From: Salvelinus alpinus
Lineage: Eukaryota > Chordata > Actinopteri > Salmoniformes > Salmonidae
Assembly (NCBI RefSeq): GCF_045679555.1
Contig: NC_092087.1
Span: 24,057,367 to 24,121,366, forward strand
Direction: 5' to 3'
Length of the DNA: 64,000 bases
Part shown: positions 7,165-60,747 of the stretch, piece by piece
How the letters are laid out: the number at the start of each line of letters is the position of its first letter
Position numbering within the stretch: position 1 is the first letter of the stretch
The notes under the pieces: model-generated
Databases searched by the model: none
Seen by the model: only the letters and a program-made list of their open reading frames with translations
What the model was told of the DNA's origin: nothing
Position numbers and translations under genes: made by a program

Positions 7165-8705
7165 AAAAAAATCACCTTTATTTAACCAGGTAGGCCAGTT
7201 GAGAACAAGTTAGGCCAGTTGAGAACAAGTTATCATTTACAACTGCGACCTGGCCAAGATAAAGCAAAGTTGTGCGACACAAACAACACAGAGTTCAACA
7301 TGGGATAAACAAACGTACAGTCAATAACACAATAGAAAAATCTATATACAGTGTGTGCAAATGTAGTAAGATATGGGAGGTAAGGCAATAAATAATTACA
7401 ATTTAGCATTGACACTGGAGTGATAGATGTGCAGATGATGATGTGCAAGTAGAGATACTGGGGTGCAAAAGAGCAAAAATAAATAACAATATGGGGATGA
7501 GGTAGTTGGGTGGGCTATTTACAGATGGGCTATGTACAGGTGCAATGATCGGTAAGCTGCTCTGACAGCTGATGGTTAAAGTTAGTGAGTGAGATATAAG
7601 ACTCCAGCTTCAGTGATTTTTGCAATTTGTTCCAGTCATTGGCAGCAGAGAACTTGGCCAAAGGGGGAGTTGGCTTTGAGGGTGACCAGTGAGATATACC
7701 TGCTGGAGCGTGTGCTTCTGGTGGGTGTTGCTATGGTGACCAGTGAGCTGAGATAAGGCGGGGCTTTACCTAGCAAAGACTTATAGATGACCTGGAGCCA
7801 GTGGGTTTGGCGACGAATATGAAGCGAGGGCCAGCCAACGAGAGGATACAGGTCGCAGTGGTGGGTAGTATATGGGGCTTTGGTGACAAAACGGATGGCA
7901 CTGTGATAGACTACATCCAATTTGCTGAGTAGGGTGTTGGAGGCTATTTTGTAAATGACATCGCTGAAGTCGAGGATCGGTAGGATCAGTTTTAGGAGGG
8001 TGTTTAGCAGCGTGAGTGAAGGATGCTTTGTTGCGAAATAGGAAGCCGATTCTAGATTGAATTTTGGATTGGAGATGCTTAATGTGAGTCTGGAAGGAGA
8101 GTTTACAGTCTAACCAGACGCCTAGGTATTTGTTTTTGTTCACATATTTTAAGTCAGAACCGTCGAGAGTAGTGATGCTAGTCGGGCGGGCGGGTGCGGG
8201 CAGCGATTGGTTGAAAAGCATGCATTTAGTTTTACTAGCATTTAAGACCAATTGGAGGCCATGGAAGGAGTGTTGTATGGCATTGAAGCTCGTCTAGAGG
8301 TTTGTTAACACAGTGTCCAAAGAAGGGCCAGAAGTATACAGAATGGTATCATCTGCGTAGAGGGGGATCAGAGAATCACCAGCAGCAAGAGCGACATCAT
8401 TGATATATACAGAGAAAAGAGTCGGCCCATGAATTGAACCCTGCGGCACCCCCATAGAGACTGCCAGAGGTCCGGACAACTGGCCCTCCGATTTGACACA
8501 CTGAACTCTGAGAAGTAGTTGGTGAACCAGGCGAGGCGGTCATTTGAGAAACCAAGGCTGTTGAGTCTGGCGATAAGAATGTGATGATTGACAGAGTCGA
8601 AAGCCTTGGCCAGGTCGATGAAGATGGCTGCAGAGTACTGTCTTTTATTGATGCCGGTTTGTAGTGTGTGTATATCTGTGGCGGTCGGTGCCATTTTAAG
8701 ATTAG
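7165..8705 (-). mobile_element. LINE family A, 5'-truncated copy
   Basis: The minus strand matches the 3' half of the intact LINE at 32014-37010, from RT motif A (FIDLAKAFDSVNHHILI near 8600) through YADD near 8350 to the C-terminal region and the same 3' end (AATAAAGGTG preceded by a duplicated GTTGAGAACAAGTTA). The frame is broken in several places, for example near 8480 and 8000. It lies directly left of the perfect palindrome. Confidence 0.85.
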
Positions 8706-15809: not shown

Positions 15810-16183
15810 CAGTCGTGGCCAAAAGTTTTGAGAATGACACAAGTATTAATTTTCACAAAGTCTGCCGCCTCAGTTTGTATGATGGCAATTTGCATATACT
15901 CCAGAATGATATGAAGAGTGATCAGATGAATTGCAATTAATTGCAAAGTCCCTCTTTGCCATGCAAATGAACTGAATCCCCAAAAAACATTTCCACTGCA
16001 TTTTAGCCCTGCCACAAAAGGACCAGCTGACATCATGTCAGCGATTCTCTCGTTAACACAGGTGTGAGTGTTGACGAGGACAAGGCTGGAGATCACTCTG
16101 TCATGCTGATTGAGTTCGAATAACAGACTGGAAGCTTCAAAAGGAGGGTGGTGCTTGGAATCATTGTTCTTCCTCTGTCAACC

Positions 16184-17160
16184 ATGGTTACCTGCAAGGA
16201 AACACGTGCCGTCATCATTGCTTTGCACATAAGGGCTTCACAGGCAAGAATATTGCTGCCAGTAAGATTGCACCTAAATCAACCAGTTATCGGATCGTCA
16301 AGAACTTCAAGGAGAGCGGTTCAATTGTTGTGAAGAAAGCTTCAGGGCGCCCCGGAAAGTCCAGCAAGCGCCAGGACCGTCTCCTAAAGTTGATTCTGCT
16401 GCAGGATCGGGGCACCACCAGTACAGAGCTTGCTCAGGAATGGCAGCAGGCAGGTGTGAGTGCATCTGCACGCACAGTGAGGCGAAGACTTTTGGAGGAT
16501 GGCCTGGTGTCAAGAAGGCCACTTCTCTCCAGGAAAAACATCAGGGACAGACTGATATTCTGCAAAAGGTACAGGAATTGGACTGCTGAGGACTGGGGTA
16601 AAGTCATTTTCTCTGATGAATCCCCGTTCCGATTGTTTGGGGCATCCGGAAAAAAACTTGTCCGGAGAAGACAAGGTGAGCGCTACCGTCAGTCCTGTGT
16701 CATGCCAACAGTAAAGCATCCTTATACCCTTCATGTGTGGGGTTGCTTCTCAGCCAAGGGAGTGGGCTCACTCACAATTTTGCCTAAGAACACAGCCATG
16801 AATAAAGAATGGTACCAACACTTCCTCCAAGAGCAACTTCTCCCAACCTTACAGAAACAGTTTGGTGACAAACAATGCATTTTCCAGCATGATGGAGCAC
16901 CTTGCCATAAGGCAAAAGTGATAACTAAGTGGCTCGGGGAACAAAACATCGATATTTTGGGTCCATGGCCAAGAAACTCCCCAGACCTTAATCCCATTGA
17001 GAACTTGTGGTCAATCCTCAAGAGGCGGGTGGACAAAGAAAACCCCACAAATTCTTACAAACTCCAAGCATTGATTATGCAAGAATGGACTTGTGGCCCA
17101 GAAGTTAATTGACAGCATGCCAGGGAGGATTGCAGAGGTCTTGAAAAAGACCTTCATGTA
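16184..17160 (+). pseudogene. Tc1 transposase, frameshifted
   Basis: DD34E-type transposase remains. The ATG at 16184 starts MVTCKETRAVIIALH, then one or two bases are missing near 16228, after which the frame from 16330 runs through the helix-turn-helix region and the catalytic domain: FSDESPFRLFG (first Asp), IFQHDGAPCHKAK (second Asp) and [12 protein letters not shown] (Glu). A second small deletion near 17093 ends that frame early at 17110-17112, while the true C-terminus (LIDSMPGRIAEVLKKTF) continues in the next frame to 17160. The same family occurs at 1-88. Confidence 0.85.
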
Positions 17161-31599: not shown

Positions 31600-32013
<414 letters not shown>

Positions 32014-33329
32014 TCCAATCCAAGATGGCGTAGCAGTCGGATGTGTCTTTCTCCTGTCTGTCCCGTGTAAATAGTATTCGTATTTTTCGTATACATTTCG
32101 TATATATTTTAATTTCACTTTCCATCTAGGAACTGAATATACATTCCTACATTCCGCCTCACCCAATGTGGTACGGACCTGCTATTTTTTTATACTTTAG
32201 AACCGTAACCCCAATCAGAAGCTAGCCAGATAACTAGCTACTAGCTAGTAGTCAGTTAGCCACTGCTGCGGTCTTCGCCCTTAACTCGGACACAGCCAGC
32301 TTCAATACCGGGCCAATACCTGCCAGTCTGCAAGCGCGATATCAACCCAGAGCATATAGGACTGCTTTTTCTCTACCACATCACCGGATTCCTGACGCAA
32401 GCTCTGGACAATTACACCGTATTATCACAGCTAGCTAGCTGCAACCGAGTGGCTACTACTGGCTAACACCTCTGTCCCGAAGCAAGCACCAGTTAGCCTT
32501 GAGCTAGCCTCGAGCTAGGCCCATCTGCCGGCTAGCCGAAGAGGTCTACCAGCGAATTCTTGGGCTACAATACCTCTTTTGCCAATTGGACTGGACCTTT
32601 TTTTTGCCGACACAGAGCCCTGCCAATCCATCACAACTGGTCTAAATCAGCTACAAGCTAATTTAGCCATTTTTTTGCCGCTGCTAGTAGCTTTTACCTT
32701 CTGCACAGACACCAGCCCTGTTATTAGCCTGGATATTACTCACCAATTTACCAGCATCGGACTGTCTCTCGACAACAACGCCGGATTCCTGCCGTAATCC
32801 CTGAGCCACTACTTCTGATCCTCACAGCTAGCTTGCAGCTAGCGCAGTTAGCGCCACTGCCACGAAGCTAGCACCAGTTAGCAAACACAATTCTACAATT
32901 CACAACCTCTCTTTCGCCATTCGGCTTGGATTCTCTGGATTCTCTGTCGACACGACCACGTCTGAGCAGACCCCCTCCGTCTGAGCAGACCACCCCCCGG
33001 GCTACTAACTTTAAACGCCGCGTGCTAGCTTAGTGGAGGCCTCCCTGCTCCATCTACGGCTGCCCCCTGGACACTATGATCACTTGGCTACATAGCTGAT
33101 GCATGCTTGACTGTCCATTAATTCACGGTACTCCATTCTGTTTATTTGTGTTTTATCTGTCGGCTCTGTGCTTTAACTCAGGATCTGTGTGTAGTTAATC
33201 CGACCCTCTCTGCCTAGTCGTCGCCATTTTTACCTGTTGTTGCTGTGTTAGACTAGCACCCTGTTATTGCTGCTGTTATCTTACCTGTTGTTTTAGCTAG
33301 CTCTCCCAATCAAGACCTGCAATCACTTT

Positions 33330-36300
33330 ATGCCTTATTGTATGTCTCTCTCAAATATCAATATGCCTTGCATACTGTTGTTCAGGCTAGTTTTCATTAT
33401 CATTGTTTTGGTTTGCAATGGACCCTGTAGTTCCACTCTCCGTACCTCTGATACCCCCTTTGTCCCACCCCCCACACATGCGGTGACCTCACCCATTGAG
33501 ACCAGCATGTCCAGAGATACAACCTCTCTTATCATCACCCAGTGCCTGGGCTTGCCTCCGCTGTACCCGCGCCCCTCCATACCCCTGTCTGCACATTATG
33601 CCCAGAATCTATTCTACCACGCCCATAAATCTGCTCCTTTTATTCTTTGTCCCCAACGCTCTAGGCGACCAGTTTTGATAGCCTTTAGCCGCACCCTCAT
33701 CCTACTACTCCTCTGTTCCTCGGGTGATGTGGAGGTAAACCCAGGCCCTGCATGTCCCCAGTCACCCTCATTTGTTGACTTCTGTGATCGAAAAAGCCTT
33801 GGCCTCATGCATGTCAACATCAGAAGCCTCCTCCCTAAGTTTGCCTTACTCACCGCTTTAGCACACTCTGCCAATCCTAATGTCCTTGCCGTGTCCGAAT
33901 CCTGGCTTAGGAAGGCCACCAATAATTCTGAGATTTCCATACCCAACTATAACACTTTCCGTCAAGATAGAACTGCCAAAGGGGGAGGAGTTGCAATCTA
34001 CTGCAGAGATAGCCTGCAAAGTTCTGTCATACTTTCCAGGTCTATGCCCAAACAGTTCGAACTTCTAATTTTAAAAATTAATCTCTCCAGAAATAAGTCT
34101 CTCACTGTTGCCGCCTGCTACCGACCCCCCTCAGCTCCCAGCTGTGCCCTGGACACCATCTGTGAATTGATCGCTCCCCATCTAGCTTCAGAGTTTGTTC
34201 TGTTAGGTGACCTAAACTGGGATATGCTTAACACCCCGGCAGTCCTACAATCCAAGCTTGATGCCCTCAATCTCACACAAATCATCAAGGAACCCACCAG
34301 GTACAACCCTAAATCCGTAAACATGGGCACCCTAATAGACATTATCCTGACCAACCTGCCCTCCAAATACACCTCTGCTGTCTTCAATCAAGATCTCAGC
34401 GATCACTGCCTCATTGCCTGTATCCGCCACGGGTCCGCGGTCAAACGACCACCCCTCATCACTGTCAAACGCTCCCTAAAACACTTCTGCGAGCAGGCCT
34501 TTCTAATCGACCTGGCCCGGGTACCCTGGAAGGATATTGACCTCATCCCGTCAGTTGAGGATGCCTGGTCATTCTTTAAATGTTACTTCCTCACCATATT
34601 AGACAAGCATGCTCCGTTCAAAAAATGCAGAACCAAGAACAGATATAGCCCTTGGTTCACTCCAGACCTGACTGCCCTCGACCAGCACAAAAACATCCTG
34701 TGGCGAACTGCAATAGCATCGAAGAGCCCCCGCGATATGCAACTGTTCAGGGAAGTCAGGAACCAATACACGCAGTCAGTCAGGAAAGCAAAGGCCAGCT
34801 TTTTCAAGCAGAAATTCGCATCCTGTAGCTCTAACTCCAAAAAGTTCTGGGATACTGTAAAGTCCATGGAGAACAAGAGCACCTCCTCCCAGCTGCCCAC
34901 TGCACTGAGGCTAGGTAACACGGTCACCACCGATAAATCCGTGATAATCGAAGACTTCAACAAGCATTTCTCAATGGCTGGCCATGCCTTCCTCCTGGCG
35001 ACTCCAACCTTGGCCAACAGCCCCGCCCCCCCCCCCGCTGCTACTCGCCCAAGCCTCCCCAGCTTCTCCTTTACCCAAATCCAGATAGCAGATGTTCTGA
35101 AAGAGCTGGAAAACCTGGACCCTTACAAATCAGCTGGGCTTGACAATCTGGACCCCCTATTTCTGAAACTGTCCGCCGCCATTGTCGCACCCCCTATTAC
35201 CAGCCTGTTCAACCTCTCCTTCGTATCATCTGAGATCCCCAAGGATTGGAAAGCTGCCGCGGTCATCCCCCTCTTCAAAGGGGGAGACACCCTGGACCCA
35301 AACTGTTACAGACCTATATCCATCCTGCCCTGCCTATCTAAGGTCTTCGAAAGCCAAGTCAACAAACAGATCACTGACCATCTCGAATCCCACCGTACCT
35401 TCTCCGCTGTGCAATCCGGTTTCCGAGCCGGTCACGGGTGCACCTCAGCCACGCTCAAGGTACTAAACGATATCATAACCGCCATCGATAAAAGACATTA
35501 CTGTGCAGCCGTCTTCATCGACCTGGCCAAGGCTTTCGACTCTGTCAATCACCATATTCTTATCGGCAGACTCAGTAGCCTCGGTTTTTCTAATGACTGC
35601 CTTGCCTGGTTCACCAACTACTTTGCAGACAGAGTTCAGTGTGTCAAATCGGAGGGCATGTTGTCCGGTCCTCTGGCAGTCTCTATGGGGGTACCACAGG
35701 GTTCAATTCTCGGGCCGACTCTTTTCTCTGTATACATCAATGATGTTGCTCTTGCTGCGGGCGATTCCCTGATCCACCTCTACGCAGACGACACCATTCT
35801 ATATACTTCCGGCCCTTCCTTGGACACTGTGCTATCTAACCTCCAAACGAGCTTCAATGCCATACAACACTCCTTCCGTGGCCTCCAACTGCTCTTAAAC
35901 GCTAGTAAAACCAAATGCATGCTTTTCAACCGTTCGCTGCCTGCACCCGCACGCCCGACTAGCATCACCACCCTGGACGGTTCCGACCTAGAATATGTGA
36001 ACATCTATAAGTACCTAGGTGTCTGGCTAGACTGCAAACTCTCCTTCCAGACTCATATCAAACATCTCCAATCCAAAATCAAATCAAGAATCGGCTTTCT
36101 ATTCCGCAACAAAGCCTCCTTCACTCACGCCGCCAAACTTACCCTAGTAAAACTGACTATCCTACCGATCCTCGACTTCGGCGATGTCATCTACAAAATA
36201 GCTTCCAACACTCTACTCAGCAAACTGGATGCAGTTTATCACAGTGCCATTCGTTTTGTTACTAAAGCACCTTATACGACCCACCACTGCGACCTGTATG

Positions 36301-36626
36301 CCCTAGTCGGCTGGCCCTCGCTACATGTTCGTCGTCAGACCCACTGGCTCCAGGTCATCTACAAGGCTATGCTAGGTAAAGTGCCGCCTTATCTCAGTTC
36401 ACTGGTCACGATGGCTACACCCACCCGCAGCACGTGCTCCAGCAGGTGTATCTCACTGATCATCCCTAAAGCTAAAACCTCATTTGGACGCCTTTCCTTC
36501 CAGTTCTCTGCTGCCTGCGACTGGAACGAATTGCAAAAATCTCTGAAGTTGGAGACTTTTATCTCCCTCAACAACTTTAAAAATCTGCTATCCGAGCAGC
36601 TAACCGATCGCTGCAGCTGTACATAG
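33330..36626 (+). CDS. LINE ORF: 2A-like leader, APE endonuclease and reverse transcriptase
   Basis: 1,098 codons with no break. Residues 1-130 are a leader with two hydrophobic stretches (about 11-29 and 114-129). Residues 132-140 form a 2A-like motif. About 155-365 is an APE-type endonuclease with HVNIRSL (Asn163), SESWL (Glu190), GDLNWD (Asp294) and SDH (357-359). Reverse transcriptase spans about 580-870 with FIDLAKAFD (729-737), GVPQGSILGP (787-796) and YADD (818-821), followed by a C-terminal region. All expected catalytic residues are present. This enzyme nicks DNA and copies its own RNA at the nick (target-primed reverse transcription). The ATG at 33330 is the first long-frame start. 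The intact frame suggests a young, possibly active copy; expression is unknown. Confidence 0.93.
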   Translation: MPYCMSLSNINMPCILLFRLVFIIIVLVCNGPCSSTLRTSDTPFVPPPTHAVTSPIETSMSRDTTSLIITQCLGLPPLYPRPSIPLSAHYAQNLFYHAHKSAPFILCPQRSRRPVLIAFSRTLILLLLCSSGDVEVNPGPACPQSPSFVDFCDRKSLGLMHVNIRSLLPKFALLTALAHSANPNVLAVSESWLRKATNNSEISIPNYNTFRQDRTAKGGGVAIYCRDSLQSSVILSRSMPKQFELLILKINLSRNKSLTVAACYRPPSAPSCALDTICELIAPHLASEFVLLGDLNWDMLNTPAVLQSKLDALNLTQIIKEPTRYNPKSVNMGTLIDIILTNLPSKYTSAVFNQDLSDHCLIACIRHGSAVKRPPLITVKRSLKHFCEQAFLIDLARVPWKDIDLIPSVEDAWSFFKCYFLTILDKHAPFKKCRTKNRYSPWFTPDLTALDQHKNILWRTAIASKSPRDMQLFREVRNQYTQSVRKAKASFFKQKFASCSSNSKKFWDTVKSMENKSTSSQLPTALRLGNTVTTDKSVIIEDFNKHFSMAGHAFLLATPTLANSPAPPPAATRPSLPSFSFTQIQIADVLKELENLDPYKSAGLDNLDPLFLKLSAAIVAPPITSLFNLSFVSSEIPKDWKAAAVIPLFKGGDTLDPNCYRPISILPCLSKVFESQVNKQITDHLESHRTFSAVQSGFRAGHGCTSATLKVLNDIITAIDKRHYCAAVFIDLAKAFDSVNHHILIGRLSSLGFSNDCLAWFTNYFADRVQCVKSEGMLSGPLAVSMGVPQGSILGPTLFSVYINDVALAAGDSLIHLYADDTILYTSGPSLDTVLSNLQTSFNAIQHSFRGLQLLLNASKTKCMLFNRSLPAPARPTSITTLDGSDLEYVNIYKYLGVWLDCKLSFQTHIKHLQSKIKSRIGFLFRNKASFTHAAKLTLVKLTILPILDFGDVIYKIASNTLLSKLDAVYHSAIRFVTKAPYTTHHCDLYALVGWPSLHVRRQTHWLQVIYKAMLGKVPPYLSSLVTMATPTRSTCSSRCISLIIPKAKTSFGRLSFQFSAACDWNELQKSLKLETFISLNNFKNLLSEQLTDRCSCT
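33723..33749 (+). other. 2A-like ribosome-skipping motif
   Basis: Codons read GDVEVNPGP, fitting the D(V/I)ExNPGP consensus at which ribosomes fail to form the final Gly-Pro bond and continue. In the LINE ORF it would separate a ~139-residue leader from the endonuclease/RT protein starting at Pro140. 2A-like sequences are known in APE-type LINEs of several animals. Skipping activity here is inferred from the motif. Confidence 0.85.
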
Positions 36627-37010
36627 TCCATCTGTAAACTACCCACCCAATTTACCTACCTCACCCCCCATACTGCTTTTATTTATTTACTTTTCTGCTC
36701 TTTTGCACACCAGTATCTCTTCTTGCACATGATCATCTGATGATTTATCACTCCAGTGTTAATCTGCTAAATTGTAATTATTCGATTTATTGCCTACCTC
36801 ATGCCTTTTGCACACATTGTATATAGATTCTCTTTTTTCTACCATGTTATTGACTTGTTTATTGTTTACTCCATGTGTAACTCTGTGTTGTCTGTTCACA
36901 CTGCTATGCTTTATCTTGGCCAGGTCGCAGTTGCAAATGAGAACTTGTTCTCAACTAGCCTACCTGGTTAAATAAAGGTGAAATAAAAAAAATAAAAAAA
37001 ATAAAAAAAA

Positions 37011-37463
37011 TGTTTTTATTATATTCAACATAGGAGGGCCAAGCACAGGAAGCAGCTTTTTCAGTAGTTTAGTTGGAATAGGGTCCAGGATGCAGCTTGA
37101 AGGTTGAGGCCATGACTATTTTCATCAATGTGTCAAGAGATATAGTATTAAAAAACATGAGTGTCTCCCTTGATCCTAGGTCCTGGCAGTGTTGTGCAGA
37201 CTCAGGACAATTGAGCTTTGGGGAAATACACAGATTTAAAGAGGAGTTCGTAATTTGCTTTCTAATGATCATGATCTTTTCGTCAAAGAAGTTCATGAAT
37301 TTATCACTGCTGAAGTGAAAGCCATCCTCTCTTGGGGAATTCTGCTTTTTAGTTAGCTTTGCGACAGCATCAAAAATACATTTTGGATTGTTCTTTTTCT
37401 CCTCAATTAGGTTGGAAAAATAGGATGATCGAGCAGCACTGAGGGCTCTTCGATACTGCACGG
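37011..37463 (-). mobile_element. Older LINE (family C), part right of insertion
   Basis: The minus strand from 37461 encodes the linker upstream of RT (MQYRRALSAARSSYFSNLIE; FDAVAKLTKKQNS), then, after a frame change, CILDPIPTKLLKKLLPVLG, ending at the LINE A insertion point. Together with 31600-32013 it gives a continuous LINE reading. Confidence 0.8.
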
Positions 37464-40169: not shown

Positions 40170-41776
40170 CAGTGGGGAGAACAAGTATTTGATACACTGC
40201 CGATTTTGAAGGTTTTCCTACTTACAAAGCATGTAGAGGTCTGTAATTTTTATCATAGGTACACTTCAACTGTGAGAGACGGAATCTAAAACAAAAATCC
40301 AAAAAATCACATTGTATGATTTTTAAGTAATTAATTTGCATTTTATTGCATGACATAAGTATTTGATCACCTACCAACCAGTAAGAATTCCGGCTCTCAC
40401 AGACCTGTTAGTTTTTCTTTAAGAAGCCCTCCTGTTCTCCACTCATTACCTGTATTAACTGCACCTGTTTGAACTTGTTACCTGTATAAAAGACACCTGT
40501 ACACACACTCAATCAAACAGACTCCAATCTCTCCACAATGGCCAAGACCAGAGAGCTGTGTAAGGACATCAGGGATAAAATTGTAGACCTGCACAAGGCT
40601 GGGATGGGCTACAGGACAATAGGCAAGCAGCTTGGTGAGAAGGCAACAACTGTTGGCGCAATTATTAGAAAATGGAAGAAGTTGAAGATGACGGTCAACC
40701 ACCCTCGGTCTGGGGCTCCATGCAAGATCTCACCTCGTGGGGCATCAATGATCATGAGAAAGGTGAGGGATCAGCCCATAACTACACGGCAGGACCTGGT
40801 CAATGACCTGAAGAGAGCTGGGACCACAGTCTCAAAGAAAACCATTAGTAACACACTACACCGTCATGGATTGAAATCCTGCAGCGCATGCAAGGTCCCC
40901 CTGCTCAAGCCAGCGCATTTCCAGGCCCGTCTGAAGTTTGCCAATGACCATCTGGATGATCCAGAGGAGGAATGGGAGAAGGTCATGTGGTCTGATGAGA
41001 CAAAAATAGAGCTTTTTGGTCTAAACTCCACTCGCCGTGTTTGGAGGAAGAAGAAGGTTGAGTACAACCCCAAGAACACCCTCCCAACCGTGAAGCATGG
41101 AGGTGGAAACATCATTCTTTGGGGATGCTTTTCTGCAAAGGGGACAGGACGACTGCACCATATTGAGGGGAGGATGGATGGGGCCATGTATCGCGAGATC
41201 TTGGCCAAAAACCTCCTTCCCTCAGTAAGAGCATTGAAGATGGGTCGTGGCTGGATCTTCCAGCATGACAACGACCCGAAACACACAGCCAGGGCAACTA
41301 AGGAGTGGCTCCGTAAGAAGCATCTCAAGGTCCTGGAGTGGCCTAGCCAGTCTCCAGACCTGAACCCAATAGAAAATCTTTGGAGGGAGCTGAAAGTCCG
41401 TATTGCCCAGCGACAGCCCCGAAACCTGAAGGATCTGGAGAAGGTCTGTATGGAGGAGTGGGCCAAAATCCCTGCTGCAGTGTGTGCAAACCTGGTCAAT
41501 AACTACAGGAAACGTATGATCTTTGTAATTGCAAACAAAGGTTTCTGTACCAAATATTAAGTTCTGCTTTTCTGATGTATCAAATACTTATGTCATGCAA
41601 TAAAATGCAAATTAATTACTTAAAAATCATACAATGTGATTTTCTGGATTTTTGTTTTAGATTCCGTCTCTCACAGTTGAAGTGTACCTATGATAAAAAT
41701 TACAGACCTCTACATGCTTTGTAAGTTGGAAAACCTGCAAAATCGGCAGTGTATCAAATACTTGTTCTCCCCACTG
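40170..41776 (+). mobile_element. Complete Tc1-like transposon, 1,607 bp
   Basis: Inverted termini start CAGTGGGGAGAACAAGTATT and end in the reverse complement; they extend over roughly 200 bp with few mismatches. TA target duplications are intact at 40168-40169 and 41777-41778. It encloses one uninterrupted transposase gene. It is the only Tc1 copy in the window with both intact ends and an intact ORF. Confidence 0.95.
40538..41560 (+). CDS. Tc1/mariner transposase, DD34E, apparently intact
   Basis: 340 codons, the usual Tc1 transposase length. The N-terminus has two helix-turn-helix regions (about 5-50 and 65-110) that bind the terminal repeats. A GGG-containing box ([13 protein letters not shown], 187-198) and a catalytic DDE core follow: Asp153 in WSDETKIE, Asp244 in [11 protein letters not shown] and Glu279 in LNPIENLW, with 34 residues between the last two, i.e. 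DD34E. It cuts and pastes the element into TA sites. No stop or frameshift is present. The ATG at 40538 is the first after the left terminal repeat and begins [20 protein letters not shown], typical of the family. Activity has to be inferred from intactness alone. Confidence 0.95.
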
Positions 41777-50874: not shown

Positions 50875-51002
50875 CCCGGTGCGGGTTATTCCACCTCCCC
50901 GCACTGGTAGGGCTAGATTGAGCATTGAGCCAAGTGCCATGAAGCCGGCTCTACATATCTGGCCACCAGTGCGTCTCCTTCAGGTAAGGTTGGGCAGGCT
51001 CA

Positions 51003-52217
51003 GTGCTCAAGGGAGCCAGTAGCCTGCACGGTCCGGTATTTCCGGCGCCACCTCCCCGCCCCAGCCCAGTACCACCAGTGCCTACACCACGCACCAGGCT
51101 TCCAGTGCGTTTTCAGAGCCCTGTTCCTCCACGCACTCTTCCTATGGTGCGTGTCTCCAGCCCAGTGCCTCCAGTTCCGGCACCACGCACTAAGCCACCT
51201 GTGCGTCTCCAGAGCCCTGTACACACTGTTCTTTCTCCCCGTACTCGTCCTGATGTGCGTGCCCGCAGCCCGGTGCCACCAGTGCCGGTACCACGCACCA
51301 GGCAAATAGTACGCTTTGAGAGTCCAGTGTGCCCTGTCCCTGCTCCCCGCACTAGCATGAAGGTGCGTGTCCTTAGCCCGGTGCCTCCAGTTCCGGCACC
51401 ACGCACCAGGTCTACAGTGCGCCTTATCCGGCCAGAGCCATCCGTCTCCCTAGCGTCATCTGAGCCATCCGTCTCCCCAGCGCCATCTGAGCCATCCGTC
51501 TCCCCAGCGCCGTCTGAGCCATCCGTCTCCCCAGCGCCGTCTGAGCCATCCGTCTCCCCAGCGCCGTCTGAGCCATCCGCCTCCCCAGCGCCGTCTGAGC
51601 CATCCGTCTGTCCCGAGCCATTAGAGCCGCCCGTCTGTCCCGAGCCGTCAGAGCCGATAGTCAGTCAGGAGCCGCTAGAGCCATTCGTCAGACAGGATCT
51701 GCCAGAGCCGCCAACCAGACAGGATCTGCCAGAGCCGCTAACCAGACAGGATCTGCCAGAGCCGCTAACCAGACAGGATCTGCCAGAGCCGCTAACCAGA
51801 CAGGATCTGCCAGAGCCGCCAACCAGACAGGATCTGCCAGAGCCGCCAACCAGACAGGATCTGCCAGAGCCGCCAACCAGACAGGATCTGCCAGAGCCGC
51901 CAACCAGACAGGATCTGCCAGAGCCGCCAGTGAGCCATGAGCGTCCAGAGCCGCCAGTGAGCCATGAGCGTCCAGAGCCGCCAGTGAGCCATGAGCGTCC
52001 AGAGCCGCCAGCCATGAGCGTCCAGAGCCGTCAGCCAGCCATGAGCGTCGAGAGCCGTCAGCCAGCCATGAGCGTCGAGAGCCGTCAGCCAGCCATGAGC
52101 GTCGAGAGCCGTCAGCCAGCCATGAGCGTCCAGAGCCGTCAGCCAGCCATGAGCGTCCAGAGCCGTCAGCCAGCCATGAGCGTCCAGAGCCGTCAGCCAG
52201 CCCGGAGCTGCCAGTAA
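51003..52217 (+). CDS. ORF2 of the LTR element, proline-rich 9-residue repeats
   Basis: 404 codons. The N-terminal 140 residues are Pro/Arg-rich with recurring SPVPPVPAPRT. After that, four blocks of 9-residue repeats follow: SEPSVSPAP (7 copies, from 51435), RQDLPEPPT (9 copies, 51690-51932), SHERPEPPV (3 copies) and AMSVQSRQP (7 copies, to about 52199). Low complexity, no membrane segment, no enzyme motif. It may be non-coding filler that happens to stay open; the unbroken 400 codons and the 27-bp period argue for past coding. Confidence 0.5.
   Translation: MLKGASSLHGPVFPAPPPRPSPVPPVPTPRTRLPVRFQSPVPPRTLPMVRVSSPVPPVPAPRTKPPVRLQSPVHTVLSPRTRPDVRARSPVPPVPVPRTRQIVRFESPVCPVPAPRTSMKVRVLSPVPPVPAPRTRSTVRLIRPEPSVSLASSEPSVSPAPSEPSVSPAPSEPSVSPAPSEPSVSPAPSEPSASPAPSEPSVCPEPLEPPVCPEPSEPIVSQEPLEPFVRQDLPEPPTRQDLPEPLTRQDLPEPLTRQDLPEPLTRQDLPEPPTRQDLPEPPTRQDLPEPPTRQDLPEPPTRQDLPEPPVSHERPEPPVSHERPEPPVSHERPEPPAMSVQSRQPAMSVESRQPAMSVESRQPAMSVESRQPAMSVQSRQPAMSVQSRQPAMSVQSRQPARSCQ
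51435..52205. repeat. 27-bp tandem repeats, four blocks
   Basis: All four blocks use the same 27-bp period though unit sequences differ: GAGCCATCCGTCTCCCCAGC type, GACAGGATCTGCCAGAGCCG type, GTGAGCCATGAGCGTCCAGA type and a GCCATGAGCGTCCAGAGCCG type. Between the third and fourth blocks GTGA is lost, which changes the frame in which the similar unit is read. Confidence 0.9.
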
Positions 52218-56164: not shown

Positions 56165-56724
56165 ATTTTTTTATTTTTTTATTTCACCTTTATTTAAATA
56201 GGCCATGGTGGTGAAGTAATTACAATATAGCAATTAAATACTGGAATGGTAGAATGTGCAGAAGATGAATGTGCAAGTAGAGATACTGGGGTGCAAAGGA
56301 GCAAGATAAATAAATAAATACAGTATGGGGATGAGGTAGATTGGATAGGCTATTCACAGATGAGCTATGTACAGGTGAAGTGATCTGTGAGCTGCTCTGA
56401 CAGTTGGTGCTTAAAGCTAGTGAGGGAGGTAAGAGTCTCTAGCTTTAGTGATTTTTGCAGTTCGTTCCAGTCACTGGCAGCAGAGAACTGGAAGGAGAGG
56501 CGGCCAAAGGAAGAATTGGCTTTGGGGGTGACCAGTGAGATATACCTGCTGGAGCGCGTGCTACGGGTGGGTGCTGCTATGGTGACCAGTGAGCTGAGAT
56601 AATGTGGGGCTTTACCTAGCAAAGACTTGTAGATCACCTGGAGCCAGTGGGTTTGGCGAGGAGTATAAAGCGAGGGCCAGCCAACGAGAGCGTACAGGTC
56701 GCAGTGGTGGGTAGTATATGGGGT
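56165..56724 (-). mobile_element. LINE family A, short 3' fragment
   Basis: The minus strand codes for the C-terminal part of the family A ORF (YTTHHCDLYALVGWPSLYTP near 56720 to LSEQLTDHFTCT at 56368) and the 3' UTR. It is 5'-truncated at about 56724. Confidence 0.85.
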
Positions 56725-59143: not shown

Positions 59144-59517
59144 TATATTTTTTTATTTCATAAAAATGATGTGCTTATTTCAGAGTGCTCCACATGTAAA
59201 AAAATAATAATAATTACAAATCATATCAATATGCATAATGGTGTTTTCTATTTAACTTGAAAAGCCAGATCTCTGTCTGCACTTATGGCAATTTACATAA
59301 TTTAATTCTATGCAGTGCTGCATTGATTTTGCATCATAATTGCCAAACACTCCAGAATGTCCAGAAAGTGCAAACATAAATTGTAATAATAAATGTGATA
59401 AGGTTGACAAAATTAGATTTGGACTGGAGTTTGACCTAATTTCTGTGAATCATGATTGATGAATAGAAAAGCTGTGTGGTAAGATTTGCTCTACTTACTT
59501 TCTGTGCAGCTATTTAT
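59144..59517. other. No gene seen
   Basis: AT-rich intergenic DNA between the Tc1 element and the LINE fragment. Confidence 0.4.
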
Positions 59518-60747
59518 TTTGATTTATTTCACCTTTATTTAACCAGGTAGGCTAGTTGAGAACAAGTTCTCATTTACAACTGCGATGTGGCCAAGATAAA
59601 GCAAAGCAGTGCGACACAAACAACAACACAGTTACACATGGAATAAACAAACATAGAGTCAATAATACAATAGAAAAAGTCTATATACAGTGTGTGCAAA
59701 TGAGGTAGGATAAGGGAGGTAAGGCAATAAATAGGCCATAGTGGTGAAATAATTACAATATAGAAATTAAACACTGGAGTGATAGATGTGCAGAAGATGA
59801 ATGTGCAAGTAGAGATACTGGGGTGCAAAGGAGCAAAATAAATAAATAACAGTATGGGGATGAGGTAGTTGGATGGGCTATTTACATATGGGCTATGTAC
59901 AGGTGCAGTGATCTGTGAGCTGCTCTAACAGCTGGTGCTTAAAGTTAGTGAGGGACATATGAGTCTCCAGCTTCAGTGATTTTTGCAGTTCGTTCCAGTC
60001 ATTGGCAGCAGAGAACTGGAAGGAAAGGAGGCCAAATGAGGAATTGGCTTTGGGGGTGACCAGTGAAATATACCTGCTGGAGCGAGTGCTACGGGTGGGT
60101 GCTGCTATGGTGACCAGTGAGCTGAGATAAGGCGGTGCTTTACCTAGCAAAGACTTATAGATGACCTGGAGCCAGTGGGTTTGGCGACAAATATGAAGCG
60201 AGGGACAGCCAACGAGAGCATACAGGTCGCAGTGGTGGGTAGTATATGGGGCTTTGGTGACAAAACGGATGGCACTGTGATAGACTGCATCCAATTTGCT
60301 GAGTAGAGTGTTGGAGGCTATTTTGTAAATGACATTGCTGAAGTCAAGGATCGGTAGGATAGTCAGTTTTACGAGGGTATGTTTGGCAGCATGAGTGAAG
60401 GATGCTTTGTTGCGAAATAGGAAGCCGATTCTAGATTTAATTTTGGATTGGAGATGCTTAATGTGAGTCTGGAAGGAGAGTTTACAGTCTAACCAGACAC
60501 CTAGGTATTTGTAATTGTCCACATATTCTAAGTCAGAACCGTCCAGAGTAGTGATGCTGAACGGGCGGGAAGGTGCGGGCAGCGATCGGTTGAAGAGCAT
60601 GAATTTAGTATTACTTGCATTTAAGAGCAGTTGGAGGCCACGGAAGGAGAGTTGTATGGCACTGAAGCTCGTCTGGAGGTTTGTTAACACAGTGTCCAAA
60701 GAAGGGCCAGAAGTATACAGAATGGTGTCATCTGCGTAGAGGTGGAA
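59518..60747 (-). mobile_element. LINE family A, 5'-truncated copy
   Basis: The minus strand is open for 268 codons (60699-59893), from just after the YADD motif to the C-terminal LLEQLTDHCTCT, with a complete 3' UTR and AATAAAGGTG end. Truncation falls at the YADD codons (60740). Less decayed than the copy at 7165-8705. Confidence 0.88.

Follow-up and report, generated by a model that had tools for sequence, protein, structure and literature searches.

A signal-peptide-like leader ahead of a 2A-like motif in a single-ORF LINE of Salvelinus alpinus, and its possible use at the endoplasmic reticulum

Introduction

2A (StopGo) sites are already known in long interspersed nuclear elements (LINEs) of the apurinic/apyrimidinic endonuclease (APE) type. 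Odon et al., writing in 2013 (Mol Biol Evol 30:1955), reportedly found 2A in one-open-reading-frame (one-ORF), APE-type retrotransposons without long terminal repeats (non-LTR), namely Rex1, Crack, L2, L2A, CR1 and Ingi. Their work is cited in PMC11512398 and PMC12846837, the second of which describes an L-rich StopGo class (motifs 2 and 6) in which a D at p12 often follows an L-rich hexapeptide closed by (A/S/C)G; the nonapeptide GDVEVNPGP is listed, in identical form, for a tortoise picornavirus (PMC8623073). Here we analyse a young, single-ORF, APE-type LINE that carries this nonapeptide within 64,000 nucleotides of the genome of the Arctic char, Salvelinus alpinus (assembly GCF_045679555.1, contig NC_092087.1, positions 24,057,367 to 24,121,366 of the forward strand; this whole stretch is hereafter the window). 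Its 2A site fits the Leu-rich class.

We propose, with a probability of about 0.6, that the part of the protein upstream of the 2A site, the leader, targets the translating ribosome to the endoplasmic reticulum (ER), that 2A releases the leader, and that synthesis of the endonuclease and reverse transcriptase (EN-RT) then starts at Pro140, giving a free protein in the cytosol. Literature titles and the opening parts of abstracts yielded nothing on signal peptides upstream of the 2A sites of LINEs and no role for the upstream part, the papers of Odon (2013) and Rao (2025; Cell Rep 44:115822) lying outside that coverage.

The 2A motif and its context

Translation of window positions 33330-36626 (+ strand, as for all features of the element below) proceeds without a break and bears out the 1,098-codon ORF of the initial annotation, which had also correctly placed GDVEVNPGP at residues 132-140 (33723-33749). 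The bond predicted to be skipped is Gly139-Pro140 (GDVEVNPG/P). Residues 133-140, DVEVNPGP, conform to the 2A core (D/G/C/N)(V/I)ExNPGP, a pattern expected 2.6e-6 times in the ORF from its composition and contained in 0 of 20,000 codon shuffles; in the six-frame translation of the 64 kb, NPGP occurs exactly once and the full core once. The D is preceded by the hexapeptide LLCSSG, and this context, together with the Leu-rich tract of residues 113-131 that it closes (33666-33722; ..IAFSRTLILLLLCSS), was assigned by eye to the L-rich StopGo class. What the site shares with that class of RNA viruses is the L-rich hexapeptide ending in SG, the D at p12 and the NPGP core, whereas the class prefers S at p15, where the LINE has V, and here the host is a LINE (PMC12846837). 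The earlier suggestion of a small leader plus a free EN-RT protein fits the class of the motif, its position just before EN and its occurrence in several subfamilies, with skipping as the presumed step that separates the two.

Copies of the motif in the host genome

When sought as DNA, GD(V/I/M)ExNPGP is encoded at 2,556 + 2,625 = 5,181 places in the 2.37-Gb host genome, against 5 for a control pattern read backwards. Several codon versions occur among the matches listed, all of which lie on one contig (for example GTG GAG GTA AAC, GTA GAG GTG AAT and GTA GAG GTT AAT), and the motif therefore belongs to a large group of LINE subfamilies and not to a single odd copy. Fifty of the 5,181 places were compared with the window, 30 at first and 20 more that favoured the rarer codon versions. 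The resulting 51 aligned sequences, window included, fall into families A (14, among them the window), B (11), C (8), D (7), E (6) and F (2), with L061, L096 and L097 placed in no family; L067, L072, L083, L088, L089, L091 and L102 stood apart in the clustering and were assigned by hand to A, C or D.

In the 13 other copies of family A the leader is 97.9-99.7% identical to that of the window, and these copies are therefore young. None of the 14 sequences of the family has a stop in the leader, and one has a 6-base gap. Leader identity to the window in the remaining 37 copies is 43-88%, being lowest in broken or rearranged copies. Broken leaders are frequent among the older copies, the six of family E included, as is expected of dead copies.

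A signal-like segment at the N-terminus

The hydrophobic, membrane-leaning stretch of the leader had at first been placed at residues 114-129, directly ahead of the motif. That stretch is hydrophobic (Kyte-Doolittle mean of 2.47 over the 15 residues 115-129), but it is not the strongest run of the protein, and it does not stand as the signal of the leader, being mainly the Leu-rich tract of the 2A site itself (L-rich class; PMC12846837). As a candidate signal peptide it was dropped in favour of residues 12-35, ~100 residues earlier. Hydropathy in the protein peaks in the 15-residue windows at residues 14 and 15 (mean, KD15, of 3.29; run 14-29), a value reached in 15 of 20,000 residue shuffles and, when the leader DNA was shuffled by dinucleotides, in 1 of 3,000. 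Of the in-frame ATGs of the ORF, that of Met12 is the first to have a purine at -3, and an ATG is present at this position in 39 of 50 aligned sequences (L094, which is masked, was left out), several of the others being truncated or rearranged.

Six representatives with an intact leader were picked, from families A, B, C, D (twice) and F, with none from E. In all six the 12-residue hydropathy (KD12) after Met12 is 2.45-3.36, while the maximum over all 40-mers of the EN-RT part of the window protein is 2.11. Equally hydrophobic N-termini arose in 17 of 20,000 residue shuffles for the window copy and in 219 of 20,000 for family B. An N-terminal hydrophobic core of the length found in signal peptides (~10-15 residues) thus lies near the start Met. 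At its end, C33-S35 of the window copy would, by eye, suit a putative cleavage site with small residues at -3/-1, and several other representatives end, by eye, in Cys-Arg-Ala or Cys-Gly-Ala. Taken together, the short n-region, the hydrophobic core and the CRA/CGA-type end make residues 12-35 (MPCILLFRLVFIIIVLVCNGPCSS; 33363-33434) read as a signal peptide, on the grounds of hydropathy and start context. Between this segment and the Leu-rich tract lies a Pro/Ser/Thr-rich region, residues 36-112 (33435-33665). A Pfam search of residues 1-140 returned 0 families, in agreement with the earlier description of a membrane-leaning leader with no recognised domain.

Selection on the leader

The ratio of non-synonymous to synonymous change (dN/dS) was obtained from family majority codons (at least 60%) in eight pairs of families, C v D and D v E being left out; the contrasts share families and are not independent. 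Family F (L087 and L099) entered the segment-wise ratios only, and not the contrasts over residues 12-112. Over residues 12-112, the A v B ratio is 0.25 (Fisher p 4.5e-7), with changes at 40.1 of 67.2 synonymous sites and at 50.9 of 205.8 non-synonymous ones; the same DNA gives 0.85 in frame +1 and 1.39 in frame +2. Ratios of 0.24 (A v E, p 2.5e-7), 0.28 (A v D), 0.31 (C v E) and 0.33 (B v C) were found in other pairs, and across all eight contrasts the beginning of EN stays at 0.06-0.13. In the Leu-rich tract, which like the leader lies outside the search pattern, the ratio is 0.11 (A v B). The leader is under purifying selection in its reading frame, clearly so between the more distant families. 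Within the signal segment, the second codon position is the least changed in 7 of 10 family pairs, with a tie in 2 and the opposite in 1 (B v E), a pattern that is merely consistent with a signal role, since EN follows the same rule.

These ratios bear on whether the leader is a by-product, that is, 5' sequence read by chance, hydrophobic through T-rich DNA and merely trimmed off by 2A. The leader DNA is indeed 31% T and 34% C, and the leader diverges faster than EN (the identity of family B copies to the window is 67-71% in the leader and 84-85% in EN). The in-frame ratio for A v B already weakens this explanation, however, and dinucleotide shuffles of the leader DNA, of which a single one in 3,000 reproduced the hydrophobic run, kept an open frame in 1.0% of cases. 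We consider a by-product very improbable.

Distant loci with a 2A site

A search for the motif in bacterial and archaeal assemblies (genome_contigs) gave 43 stretches, whose classes were judged by reading the translations. Seven are eukaryotic retroelement-like contaminants (L006, L012, L013, L014, L029, L031 and L039), and 34 are chance-like, as are two matches in viral_contigs (L001 and L002). The N-terminus is complete only in L012, L013 and L029, which serve as the test. L029, whose 1,085-residue frame shares 27% identity with the window protein across 1,078 columns, has MLVCLTLLQFLFVVHSSC from residue 9 (KD12 2.64) and a 2A at residue 90 directly ahead of EN. L012 has MAYTARAFVVLSIIIFILCN from residue 4 (KD12 3.44) and a 2A at residue 102, followed by what is, by eye, a coiled-coil ORF1-like protein. 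N-termini as hydrophobic as these arose in 53 (L029) and 0 (L012) of 20,000 residue shuffles each. L013 is a 1,157-residue EN-RT frame, 26% identical, with a 2A at residue 84. A signal-like start followed by 2A is thus found in two of the three loci with a complete N-terminus. In L031 and L039, both open at the 5' end, the 2A lies ahead of a PHD-like finger (by eye); L039 can, in addition, be aligned with EN-RT. The fragment L014 is broken and lacks an upstream Met, and its 2A precedes the start of EN. Homology between the leaders of the window copy and L029 beyond the signal and the 2A is only suggestive, being equalled in 6 of 2,000 shuffles for the window copy and in 388 of 2,000 for a family B copy.

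Some of the matches are of interest in their own right. L006, on the minus strand of contig VGXS01000063.1 of a Planctomycetota metagenome-assembled genome, has two 2A-like sites, LLLCGDVEPNPGP and LLRCGDVEPNPGP, at residues 982 and 1858 of a 2,462-residue frame that appears by eye to be a polyprotein, Gag-like first, then protease/RT/RNase H and then integrase-like, which the 2A sites would divide into three parts; it looks like a eukaryotic LTR retrotransposon in a bacterial bin. L032 (NZ_JABBPG010000020.1, Pseudoalteromonas) and L043 (NZ_JAFNJU010000023.1, Proteiniclasticum) show, by eye, the end of an antibody heavy chain, a furin site, P2A and the start of a light chain, and are expression-vector contamination of public bacterial genomes. 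Protein relatives were sought in viral_contigs, genome_contigs and phages, and DNA relatives in plasmids and phages, and none of these searches gave a useful relative. One unannotated record from human faeces, filed as 'Bacteriophage sp.' (L046, MT839988.1), gives a weak match, an RT segment 30% identical to this LINE, and is possibly a wrongly filed non-phage sequence.

Anatomy of the element and its genomic setting

The whole copy spans 32020-37011, ~5.0 kb, with ends accurate to ~10 bases. It interrupts an older LINE in antisense orientation, the two RT halves of which lie at 31701-32017 and 37012-37160 (minus strand); the RT reading of this older element resumes across the insertion (...LGPPMLNIIK on one side, DDGSLSTECVPNSLK... 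on the other), and the ends of the copy therefore fall at ~32020 and ~37011. No convincing target-site duplication was found at the two copy ends. The copy begins near CCAAGATGGC (32020-32029), letters identical to those of a YY1-type site at the 5' end of human L1, which we presume may set the start of transcription of the LINE.

The 5' untranslated region (UTR; 32020-33329, ~1.3 kb) contains an imperfect repeat whose units are ~390 bases apart (32365-32447 and 32762-32844, 71% identical; 32464-32497 and 32849-32882, 82%). It is depleted in ATG, with 6 in 32021-33329 against 14.9 +/- 3.1 in 1,000 dinucleotide shuffles, which suits scanning. Beyond the 2A site the ORF encodes an APE-type endonuclease (residues 162-359; 33813-34406; PF03372, E 1.4e-7) and a reverse transcriptase (residues 658-899; 35301-36026; PF00078, E 3.1e-32), and it is this presence of Exo_endo_phos and RVT_1 within one ORF that makes the element an APE-type LINE. 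The top matches in a PDB sequence search are LINE-1 ORF2 and R2 RT proteins. The spacing from D820 (in the YADD at 818) to W1065 is 245 residues. The 3' tail (36915-37011) consists of a predicted stem-loop (36915-36985; -21.1 kcal/mol, a value given with no shuffle control) and of AAATAAAAA repeats, with 3.4 copies of a 9-base unit in 36981-37011. The element is probably of the L2/CR1 kind.

The remaining LINE copies of the window (7204-8659, 59513-60746 and 56166-56721, all on the minus strand) have no 5' part and are uninformative on the leader. Elsewhere in the window, Tc1-like transposase frames lie at 40490-41560 (356 codons, with a Sleeping Beauty-type helix-turn-helix domain) and 16114-17112 (332 codons), a 507-codon open frame at 47568-49091 matches the rhodopsin family of seven-transmembrane proteins, and the sole Pfam match of a 409-codon open frame at 50988-52217 has an E of 0.56.

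Discussion

In the mechanism that we propose, translation would start most likely at Met12 (33363), and nascent residues 12-35 would act as a signal peptide, bringing the ribosome and its mRNA to the ER membrane. Some 104 residues further on, the Leu-rich tract and GDVEVNPG would stall the ribosome, so that the Gly139-Pro140 bond is not formed and the leader, of ~104 residues once the signal is removed, is set free in the ER or its membrane. Continuing from Pro140, that ribosome would then make a 959-residue EN-RT, which has no signal and would be free in the cytosol. The leader occupies the place that ORF1 has in other LINEs, and its likely use would be to site translation, and so the assembly of the ribonucleoprotein (RNP), at the ER membrane. 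With Gly139 in the P site, 104 residues separate it from the end of the signal (~residue 35); in L029 and L012 the corresponding distances, counted by hand, are ~71 and ~87. The ribosome-translocon complex is described as holding 65-70 residues (PMC2978324), and because 104 residues exceed this, the signal can act before skipping. The authors of an earlier suggestion, that the product made after the 2A slips through the translocon, have since withdrawn it (PMC2978324). As analogies from retroelement biology, the translation of Ty1 RNA with the signal recognition particle at the ER (PMC3945221) and the lipid binding of the ZfL2-1 ORF1p esterase (PMC3905857) may be taken as membrane precedents.

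The spacing of the two segments also bears on dual targeting, in which incomplete skipping sends the unskipped leader-EN-RT fusion along the secretory pathway and leaves the skipped EN-RT in the cytosol. Such a scheme has been described for the 2A signal sequences of the sea-urchin NOD-like receptors (NLRs; PMC4981915), and translocation can reduce the efficiency of 2A (PMC2978324). In the present element, however, the signal lies ~100 residues ahead of the 2A, so that targeting would be decided independently of skipping, and an EN-RT sent into the ER would presumably be wasted for the LINE. We give dual targeting little chance.

Several observations weigh against release of the leader at the ER. 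The chief risk is that some translocating upstream sequences inhibit 2A in cells (PMC2978324); such inhibition might also be a reason why the stretch of the leader nearest the 2A could be under constraint. For A v B the leader is less strongly selected than EN (0.25 v 0.10), and in three pairs the ratio over residues 12-112 is not significant (A v C, 0.47, p 0.06; B v E, 0.49, p 0.07; B v D, 0.57, p 0.14). Two other pairs, B v C (0.50, p 0.03) and C v E (0.43, p 0.009), have a ratio below 1 in frame +1 as well. In the 2A core, the family majorities differ by 3 synonymous and 0 non-synonymous changes, a result that is partly built in because the loci were found through the motif. The ratios for the signal segment alone, over 9-21 codons, range from 0.10 to 0.87, with one of 0 and three undefined. 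None of the six copies of family E has an intact leader start. The AlphaFold model is poor, with a mean predicted local distance difference test score (pLDDT) of 36.1 and 21 residues at 50-70, these lying within 10-25, 246-247 and 260-265. Finally, L013 shows no signal-like concentration of hydrophobic residues, its two Met starts being equalled in 9,265 and 7,651 of 20,000 shuffles.

Part of this evidence would suit a working 2A site behind a leader that has no role at the ER, for example a cytosolic or RNP factor that substitutes for ORF1 and whose hydrophobic N-terminus serves membrane anchoring or folding. The leader is conserved as protein, the ratios of the signal segment are noisy, and the 2A of L013 stands just before EN behind an N-terminus that is not signal-like. 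On the other hand, the hydrophobic segment begins right at Met12 in 6/6 representatives, the Cys-Arg-Ala and Cys-Gly-Ala ends seen in several of them would suit signal cleavage, and L029 and L012 show the same layout; on balance, a leader of this kind seems unlikely to us, though it deserves more weight than dual targeting or a by-product.

We therefore retain targeting of the ribosome to the ER, with release of the leader by 2A, as our preferred reading. A broader claim, which we put forward tentatively and would not quite back at even odds, is that of a class of LINEs translating at the ER, in which a conserved cleavable signal is followed by a leader that replaces ORF1, is made into the ER and is cut loose by 2A, and EN-RT is completed in the cytosol next to its mRNA. 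If the proposal is correct, a LINE secretory peptide is encoded by a large family of copies in the host genome, and this layout arose or persisted in distant elements as well (L029 and L012). LINEs would then be linked to the membrane theme of the lipid-binding ZfL2-1 ORF1p esterase (PMC3905857) and of Ty1 at the ER (PMC3945221). Should the leader be both ER-targeted and kept by selection, it would offer a testable answer to how translation and RNP assembly are arranged in LINEs without ORF1. Natural sequences that combine a signal peptide and a 2A in one chain would, in addition, be relevant to 2A vectors for secreted proteins.

UnaL2 of eel is a relative, with a single ORF, of the zebrafish element ZfL2-2. 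ZfL2-2, a one-ORF LINE of the L2 clade, resembles the present element in having EN and RT in one ORF, repeats in the 5' UTR, a 3' stem-loop and a short repeat tail (PMC4176376). From D689 to W934, a conserved C-terminal Trp, ZfL2-2 spans 245 residues, the same as D820-W1065 here, the equation of D689 with the Asp of YADD being ours (PMC4176376); by residue numbers only, the present protein is ~117-131 residues longer at the N-terminus (PMC4176376). With Ty1, the likeness is that of a retroelement mRNA taken to the ER during translation, which for the LINE is only proposed, and the differences are that Ty1 is an LTR element whose Gag itself crosses into the ER, and that no 2A is mentioned in the abstract of that work (PMC3945221). 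The sea-urchin NLRs resemble the LINE in that a single N-terminus holds both a targeting signal and a 2A-like sequence (PMC4981915). The model in which the leader acts as a signal peptide when skipping fails, invoked by the initial annotation, was described for these proteins; the 26-residue 2A of the NLRs is itself the signal, whereas the LINE has two segments ~100 residues apart (PMC4981915). Signal and 2A are separate in the LINE, and ER targeting can therefore precede skipping.

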